Assembly (NCBI RefSeq): GCF_001316265.1
Contig: NZ_BBDN01000004.1
Span: forward strand, 124,001-188,000
Direction: 5' to 3'
From: Vulcanisaeta sp. JCM 16159
Lineage (GTDB): Archaea > Thermoproteota > Thermoprotei > Thermoproteales > Thermocladiaceae
Length of the DNA stretch: 64,000 bases
The notes beneath the pieces were generated by a model. It searched no databases. It had not been told where the DNA came from and saw only the letters and a program-made list of their open reading frames with translations. Position numbers and translations under genes: made by a program. Numbering within the stretch: position 1 is the first letter of the stretch; each line of letters begins with the position of its first letter. This document shows positions 17,358 through 19,790 of this stretch, piece after piece.

Positions 17358-18386
17358 TTACATACTCTGATTATTAACCTTCATCACAAATCCATTGTCC
17401 ACAAGCCTCCTGAGTAGCTTCGTAACCTCACCATCACTTATTGACCTACCCTCCCTCAACTCAAGATACCTCTTAACCTCAGACCAGGTGGCGCCCTGCT
17501 TAAGAACGTTAATTACTAGTACATACCTTCTCGAGCCCATGGTCCTAACGAAGTTGCAAAACTCCTCTTCAACAATACCCGAGGCTATGTTCACGGTTTT
17601 ATCAAGAGCCTCAGGCCTTGGGTTGTTGATGTACGTAAGGCCAAATAGCGATAACCAACCGACAATACCGTTCAGTTCATCCACAGCCCTCTCAATCATA
17701 TCCTCGCCAATGGAAACCCCCGCCTTACTAAACCCACGCCTTAAGAAGTCCAGTGATTGCTCACGTGTGAATGGCTTTAACTCTATCACCTTCATGTATC
17801 TGCCATACAGTGGTGAATCAGGATCATTAACTCTCAGGTAATTATAGAGCATGCCAATCTTCGACCCAGCAAATACGAAGGATATGTTCCTCAGATTATC
17901 ATACACGTAGGCAAATACCGGTAACAAATTGAAACCCTCATCTTACTCAATTCCTGCACCTCATCAATTATCACAACCAAGTGCTTACTCTCTGATGATG
18001 CCCAGTCATTAAGGGCATCGAACAATGATGGTATTGATACCTCCCTAGCCAATCCGCTGAACTCAATGGTAAGGCACATTATTGATAAACCCTAACCCTA
18101 CTTAAGAAATCAATCAACCGTCTGCTAATTGGTAATAATTGACTCAAGGACTTCGCAAGCTCACTTAGGAAGTCCCTAATTGTCATGTAGCTCATGCCCT
18201 CAAAACTCCTCGCATCAATGTATACCCTGACCATATCCTTTGTGGCGGCCTTAACAAGCGATGTTTTACCAACACGCCTAAATCCAACCACCAATGTGAC
18301 CGCCCTATTTAATGCCGAAAATCTCAATTGCCTAATCTCAGCTTCCCTATCATACAGCTCACTTGGGTCTTCAGCTGGCCGGTCGA
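17358..18386 (-). CDS. Archaeal AAA+ ATPase, PF01637 type, copy 1 (frame broken twice or more)
   Basis: Predicted signal-transduction-type NTPase of a family expanded in archaea. Walker A is GFRRVGKTS and Walker B with arginine-finger region is VVIIDEVQEL; the C-terminal ~90 residues form a winged helix (REGRSISDGEVTKLLRRLVDNGFV). Breaks lie near 18080 and 17930. The frame is open upstream to a TAG in the palindrome, giving FLDRPAEDPSELYDRE before the visible domain, but no ordinary start codon fits, so the start is unresolved. Directly preceded by a double palindrome, suggesting autoregulation. Paralog at 58455-59542. Confidence 0.85.
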
Positions 18387-18388
18387 GA

Positions 18389-18427
18389 AACTACATACCT
18401 ATGTAGTAACTACATAGGTATGTAGTT
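18389..18427. promoter_or_regulatory. Double palindromic operator at the ATPase promoter
   Basis: Two 18-base units, ACTACATACCTATGTAGT (18390-18407) and ACTACATAGGTATGTAGT (18409-18426), are separated by one A. Each is itself a palindrome around CC/GG, and each is the reverse complement of the other, so the whole 39-base block is one palindrome. On the minus strand a TATA-like TTTATAAC (18426-18433) touches its upstream edge, and the ATPase frame begins at its other edge. This layout fits a repressor site covering the transcription start. Confidence 0.8.
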
Positions 18428-18483
18428 ATAAACCTTGCCACGTTATAAGCGTTTTTTAAAGTCTCAATGACACATTAACTCTA

Positions 18484-19790
18484 GTGCTTGCTTTCTCAAG
18501 GTTATGGATTTGGAGGTACATTAGGGATAAACTGCCCTGGTACTATGAAGTAGCCATTAACAGGAAACCAGCCAAGTACTTAATAGCCACGCGAATACCC
18601 GTTAACGAGAAAATAACCGAGTTAGGCGAGGGTGAGCTGTGGAGGGAGTTCGAGAGGGCCCTAAAGGACTTCCTCGAGTTGTGGCACAGGGTCAGAAATA
18701 ATGAGGTGGATATTAGGAACATGCCCAAGGCATCACCATCACTGCTAGACTTGGTCACCGAAATCACTAGAAGAATGATTAGGCACTGCGAATTCTGTGA
18801 GTGGCATTGTAGGGTCGATAGGATGGGTAACAAACGGCTCGGCGTCTGTATGCTTGACTCCACGAGTAGGGTATCCACATACTTCCACCACCTTGGTGAG
18901 GAGTTACCGCTCCGTGGTGTGATGGGTTCTGGGACTATATTCTTCACGTCCTGCAACTTCCGATGCGCCTTCTGCCAAAATGCTGACATAAGTAGGGACA
19001 GGTTTAATGGTGTTGTAATGAATCCTAGGCAGATAGCTTCGGCAGCGGTTATTCTTAGGCTTGAGGGTGTTCACAATATTAACTGGGTTGGTGGTGAACC
19101 AACGCCACACCTGCACAATATTGTCGAGGCTATAAGACTTATTGCCAGGGATGGCATTAAGGTCCTTGATGAACTGAGTGATGAGGAATACAACGCCGTG
19201 CTCTCGGTTAAGGCAGACTTCATACCCTACAACTTCTCCAGGGATTGGGCGTTCTACGGAAATGAGCTTAATGTGCCCATGTTATGGAATAGTAACTTCT
19301 ACATGACCGTGGATGTCATGAAATTATTAAGAGTCATTGTCGATATTCATATTCCAGATTTTAAATTTTATAGTGATAAGTGTGCATTTAGAATATCAAG
19401 AGTTCCTAGATATTTTGAAATAGTTTCTAGGAATCATAAGCTTGTCTATGATTGGGGTGAGGACATGATAATTAGGCACTTGGTAATGCCCGGGCATGTT
19501 GAGGATGATTCAAAGCCATTGCTTAAGTGGATTGCTGATAACATGCCTGGGGTCTTGGTCAACATTATGGATCAGTACAGGCCCGAGAACGAGACTGATC
19601 CTAACTCACCGAGGTTCAACCCAGAGTTTAGGGAGTTGCTAGGAGGCCAAGTAGGGAGGAGTTGATGGAGGTTTATAGGTACGCAAGGGATTTGGGCCTT
19701 AACTTTGAGTTGATTAGTTTTGAGAAGAAGATAGACATTAGATATCTAGGTGATGAGGATTCATTAATTGAAAGAATAAACGATACCTAA
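18484..19790 (+). CDS. Radical SAM protein, PflX/COG1313-like (frame broken once)
   Basis: About 435 residues. Radical-SAM cluster motif CNFRCAFC at residues ~158-165. Ahead of it, CEFCEWHC and a further Cys form the extra cysteines typical of PflX-type relatives of pyruvate formate-lyase activase. An N-terminal ~95-residue extension has no known domain. The frame breaks near 19641 (one missing T); the tail then reads RRPSREELMEVYRYA. Substrate unknown. The stretch ~19325-19440 is richer in A/T than the rest but encodes the conserved DFKF...NH region. Confidence 0.85.

Follow-up and report, generated by a model that had tools for sequence, protein, structure and literature searches.

Private twin-palindrome elements at the start codons of SSO1545-type archaeal ATPase genes as probable self-repression operators

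Comparison of sequences across archaeal genomes makes it very probable that ATPases of the SSO1545-type family bind at, and regulate, the genes that encode them, and the explanation that accounts best for the data, which we regard as probable, is that each ATPase binds a private operator at its own gene and represses itself. The candidate operator consists of two tandem 18-bp palindromic units extending from the AT-rich TATA region to the start codon. The single site described in an earlier note on the window (i.e. the whole stretch of 64,000 nucleotides analysed here, from a Vulcanisaeta-like genome that is 63% complete) is one instance of this family-wide system.

That note had reported two 18-base palindromes, reverse complements of each other, one base apart and abutting a TATA box, and this description proved exact at positions 18389-18427, which form a perfect inverted repeat with 19-nt arms. 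On the forward strand, positions 18390-18407 read ACTACATACCTATGTAGT and positions 18409-18426 read ACTACATAGGTATGTAGT; both units are individually palindromic as well as being mutual reverse complements. In minus-strand order the region reads GGTTTATA-ACTACATACCTATGTAGT-T-ACTACATAGGT[ATG]TAGT-TTCTCGACCGG. The double palindrome occupies the whole gap from the TATA box to the ATPase ATG, the last half-site holding the ATG itself. What the earlier note had missed is that this ATG lies inside the second unit, that a TAG comes next and that the ATPase frame is broken by indels. The features of the region are as follows.

17358 to 18396, minus strand: ATPase gene, with ATPase_2 (PF01637) and C-terminal winged helix (PF21100) domains; TAG at codon 2 and indels in the assembly
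17373 to 17534, minus strand: C-terminal winged helix, MCM_C-like (PF21100), from the profile match and an intact ortholog
17388 to 17438, minus strand: predicted recognition helix, SDGEVTKLLRRLVDNGF, whose initial Ser-Asp covary with half-site positions 4 and 2
18390 to 18407, minus strand: putative operator unit 2, on the start-codon side, reading ACTACATAGGTATGTAGT and including the ATG
18391 to 18393, minus strand: TAG as codon 2 of the window ATPase, from the window sequence
18394 to 18396, minus strand: start codon ATG, homologous to that of the ATPase in relatives, from comparison with orthologs
18408, no strand: linker of 1 nt between units 1 and 2 (unit period 19 bp)
18409 to 18426, minus strand: putative operator unit 1, on the TATA side, reading ACTACATACCTATGTAGT
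18427 to 18432, minus strand: putative TATA box TTTATA of the ATPase promoter, abutting unit 1 (AT-rich peak of the family at -45 to -36)
18484 to 19665, plus strand: radical SAM protein (PF04055), divergent neighbour in Vulcanisaeta, whose membership in the operator system is not implied

The view that such a site is far from chance was borne out by its conservation across genomes and by shuffling: both units are exact, while dinucleotide shuffles average 0.56 matches even at ≤3 mismatches. In the window genome (2.25 Mb), just one further site was found at ≤2 mismatches, and it carries 2 mismatches.

As for the wider family, 130 ATPase relatives with their upstream DNA were gathered over the Thermoproteota and 129 of them were scored, the element being called by a threshold on the palindrome or tandem score, with 265 ORFs of the same phylum as controls. 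An equivalent element is present in 90% of the 129 family genes vs. 6% of the control ORFs (Mann-Whitney p below 1e-32 for the palindrome and for the tandem scores). It was found in none of 26 genes of a sister PF01637 subfamily (REVEFVDR-type), and an element common to the whole PF01637 superfamily was rejected on this count. The element also occurs in Thermococcus, Bathyarchaeota, Thaumarchaeota and one Asgard MAG.

In nearly all of these relatives the architecture is that of the window: two tandem 18-bp palindromic units from the AT-rich TATA region to the start codon, with a modal period of 19 bp (73/103 scorable cases), a median span of -37 to -1 and an AT-rich peak at -45 to -36. The unit sequences of paralogs differ, examples being ACTTCTAGGGGTAGAAGT, AGTATCAGGGGTGATACT, ACTGGTGGTACCACCAGT and ACTTGGGGTACCCCAAGT. 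Half-sites follow the form A-C/G-T-NNNN, in which A-C/G-T is a common anchor and the inner part is variable; at positions 4-6, genes differ almost at random from one another (1.55-2.0 bits), yet identity within one gene is 75-87%, the inner sequence being consistent among the four half-sites of an element. The unit spacer is often a G run on the coding strand in both units, and the palindrome symmetry is broken in a constant direction. At nine loci (L084, L085, L086, L087, L091, L096, L103, L104 and L081), CTG, ACG, GCC or ATA stands where a start is expected, and unusual start codons may be used in family members lacking ATG, GTG or TTG beside the operator.

The core of the site, TATGTAGT-N-ACTACATA, was scanned in 45 genomes of the order and then in 398 Thermoproteota genomes, which gave 15 exact matches; 14 of these fall at the starts of ATPase orthologs or remnants. 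Orthologs in relatives do carry the site upstream, and it is kept across several archaeal families although the flanking genes differ. Intact ATPase orthologs of 360-363 aa are found in G015, G026, G028, G035, G040 and G042, while remnants still bearing the site include those of G018, G017, G031, G032, a partial duplicate in G040 and G324 (G016 and G017 are genomes of the same genus as the window). Since the ATPase genes of the window, G017, G018 and G020 are broken and the site is retained in each, the site outlives the gene.

Several of these remnants deserve description. In G018 (L008, position 1501 region), the ATPase is internally deleted and exactly one 19-bp unit is lost, which suggests recombination between the tandem units. 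G040 has a second copy of the promoter with about 26 ATPase codons (L033, G040:C1:119390), 38 kb from L029 (G040:C1:81345), and the remainder of the gene is absent there. In G324 (L031/L081), which belongs to another class, the perfect 39-bp element is identical and a few hundred inserted bases split the winged helix.

The elements are also private to their genes. Within single genomes, core sharing was seen in 0 of 50 paralog pairs, a count from which one locus fetched twice had been removed. Scans of 27 genomes for two operator types, at a tolerance of 1-2 mismatches, placed all exact matches at the cognate ATPase, another family member or a fragment; the five unrelated matches are all single and imperfect. 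The genome of SSO1545, whose protein is identical to that of L092 (100% match to 2FNA), contains exactly two operator matches, both at the start codon/promoter of SSO1545 itself. The search for further sites proposed in the earlier note thus revealed no crowd of copies at unrelated genes, be it in the window genome, the 398 genomes or the 27-genome scans. A general regulator motif was rejected by these scans, the lone unrelated exact core, and the sole one without an adjoining family ATPase, being L032 (G327:C8:33557).

Concerning the protein, intact orthologs match PF01637 with 62.6 and 53.3 bits (cut-off 33.2), the window fragment alone reaching 20.9 bits, under that cut-off. The winged helix that the earlier note placed at the end of the ATPase is recovered in the window fragment by PF21100 (48.7 bits vs. 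a cut-off of 27), the orthologs scoring 53.5 and 47.0. An AlphaFold model of the ortholog L215 (pLDDT 89.6) superimposes on 2fna_A with a TM of 0.90-0.92, and by its domains and modelled fold the ATPase is a member of the ATPase_2/SSO1545-type archaeal family with the 2FNA fold. The next-best structural matches are the Orc1/Cdc6 proteins 1fnn, 2qby and 2v1u (11-17% identity, TM about 0.4-0.55); no Orc/Cdc6 Pfam match was obtained in the orthologs, and close sequence kinship was rejected in favour of a structural likeness. Matches to nSTAND families are weak: nSTAND1 scores 29.8 vs. a cut-off of 27.1 in one ortholog and falls under it in the other, and nSTAND6 is under its cut-off. No sensor repeat region was seen. 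A viral or plasmid origin was rejected, IMG/VR contigs and plasmids containing no relatives.

The gene of the window is a damaged allele. Codon 2 is TTG, TCG or GCG in orthologs (ATGGCG in G015, ATGTCG in G016, ATGTTG in the others) and TAG in the window, and it is because of this TAG that the second unit is perfectly palindromic in the window allele. Besides the TAG, three indels interrupt the frame between 17358 and 18330 on the minus strand, two of them in G runs. With its ATG-TAG and indels the allele may be dead, i.e. a pseudogene, although the indels, some being in G runs, may be assembly errors; as several other genes of the window are also split, the damage is probably in part assembly error. 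Substitutions on the window branch number 12/3/22 at codon positions 1/2/3, and as they favour third positions, the gene was constrained until recently or still is.

A link between operator and protein emerged from partial rank correlations of operator distance with protein segments, controlled for the remainder of the protein. The correlation peaks at 0.40 for a segment of 15 residues close to the C-terminus, EGREISDAELTRLLK, and is about 0.1 elsewhere; this segment is the recognition helix of the winged helix, and a second covariation peak falls on the initial part of the winged-helix region. In single-column tests, residue 321/base 2 and residue 320/base 4 outrank all other column-base pairs, and in the L215 model both residues open helix 3 of the winged helix. 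The rules can be read directly: D321 goes with C2 (60 D321 genes, few exceptions) and N, S or K at 321 with G2 (25 genes), while N320 goes with T4 (23/23), D320 with G4 (15/15) and T320 with A4 (12/12). Such raw covariation is inflated by shared ancestry and the raw counts were not relied on alone.

The rules were applied to 39 held-out named loci with <85% identity to the training set (some up to 83% identical). They are correct in 33/36 cases for residue 321 and 15/15 for residue 320, vs. 18 and 6 for majority guesses, figures that are slightly pessimistic at some loci (L215 and several orthologs) where the 18-mer register was misassigned. Among held-out loci with <60% identity, they hold in 15/17 and 4/4. 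At L286 (Pyrodictiaceae), which combines D320 and N321 in a way new to the training set, the predicted AGTG is present. Phylogeny was controlled by independent pairs drawn from a tree of the ATPase domain (132 genes), an analysis redone with more loci after a first version with too few contrasts: for residue 321/base 2, 7/7 independent pairs are concordant (p 0.016), whereas the base-4 contrasts point in the same direction and are underpowered, significance among independent pairs being limited to residue 321.

Binding of the ATPase to its own promoter, as guessed earlier, thus gains comparative support from three sides, namely a site that follows the ATPase, private sites of paralogs and coevolution with the recognition helix. 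A plausible mechanism would have the ATPase sit as paired dimers on the twin 18-bp palindromes that separate its TATA box from its start codon, the N-terminus of the recognition helix reading the anchor A-C/G-T and the gene-specific inner sequence. Once bound, the protein would occupy the initiation region, sterically preventing the transcription complex from assembling or escaping; the net effect would be self-repression, possibly released by the ATP or ligand state, and unlike inner sequences would insulate paralogs of the same genome from each other. The position of the element, beyond the TATA box and reaching the start codon, speaks for repression rather than activation.

The same sequence signs would be expected from activation or from binding for another purpose. 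The ATPase might bind its own operator as an activator or dual switch, for instance one sensing a trigger like the STAND protein MalT, an option that we consider improbable. It draws on the weak nSTAND matches of the ATPase module, on the cooperative assembly that tandem sites could allow and on the fact that the STAND proteins IniR and MalT activate promoters (PMC5760070), but a protein bound downstream of the TATA box and up to the start codon would obstruct initiation, and no upstream activator-like sites were seen. An mRNA hairpin governing translation across the start codon is very unlikely: the palindromes do overlap that codon and the inverted arms could pair, but the operator sequences of paralogs track the recognition helix of a DNA-binding domain, the two direct copies are 19 bp apart and begin at the TATA box, so that part of the element would lie upstream of a leaderless or short-leader transcript start, and an Rfam search gave no match, whereby an RNA element was rejected. 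Slightly less credible still is ownership of the palindromes by a separate host regulator or mobile-element mechanism; the truncated second copy in G040 and the persistence of sites at pseudogenes would suit it, but the gene-specific operator tracks the recognition helix of the gene's own product, and viral contigs and plasmids hold no relatives. Finally, short AT-rich palindromes form easily, but chance or low complexity is practically negligible as an explanation, being already refuted by conservation across genomes and opposed by the shuffles, the rarity of the site, the controls, the agreement within genes and the 0/26 of the sister subfamily.

Self-repression by the ATPase through a dedicated operator would be an already-known kind of regulation. 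Orc1/Cdc6 initiators, which likewise join an AAA+ ATPase to a winged helix, bind inverted repeats; they use common origin boxes, unlike the private sites that paralogs here carry at their start codons. Type II antitoxins, like other autoregulatory repressors, also bind their own promoters, as would the ATPases, and their paralogs need specific operators; the antitoxin MazE6 has an 18-bp operator (PMC9477884). The present system differs in being a single-gene ATPase with no toxin-antitoxin pair, and in its fixed twin units and readable residue-base rule. STAND regulators (MalT, IniR) would resemble it in joining a STAND-like ATPase module to a DNA-binding domain (PMC5760070), but here no repeat sensor domain was seen and the targets found are the own promoters only. 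The closest relatives are the archaeal Walker-type ATPases SSO1545 (PDB 2FNA) and PABY2304 (PDB 2QEN), of the same family and full-length fold, and SSO1545 (L092) itself has a twin palindrome, ACTTCTGGGGGTAGAAGT twice, directly upstream of its start. In the open-access literature searched, no DNA target is reported for SSO1545 or PABY2304, nor are palindromic promoters in this ATPase family or a private, predictable operator for each paralog.

Family ATPases are numerous in archaea, and the two solved structures were deposited merely as 'conserved hypothetical protein' and 'Walker-type ATPase'. If each ATPase reads its private promoter, this regulation is directly testable with existing proteins, e.g. 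SSO1545. We lean, with less assurance than for self-repression, towards a broader reading in which these ATPases form an insulated set of self-addressed proteins, every paralog having a private twin-palindrome operator and a matching helix, and in which the residue-base code predicts operator from protein and vice versa. If each ATPase does read its private promoter, the family would supply a large number of naturally orthogonal repressor-operator pairs from heat-loving organisms. It would also document in nature how winged-helix specificity changes while the anchor contacts are kept, and serve as a clean model for operator-regulator coevolution among paralogs. New paralogs may persist perhaps only when operator and helix diverge together, a requirement that would explain the lineage-specific expansion of paralogs.
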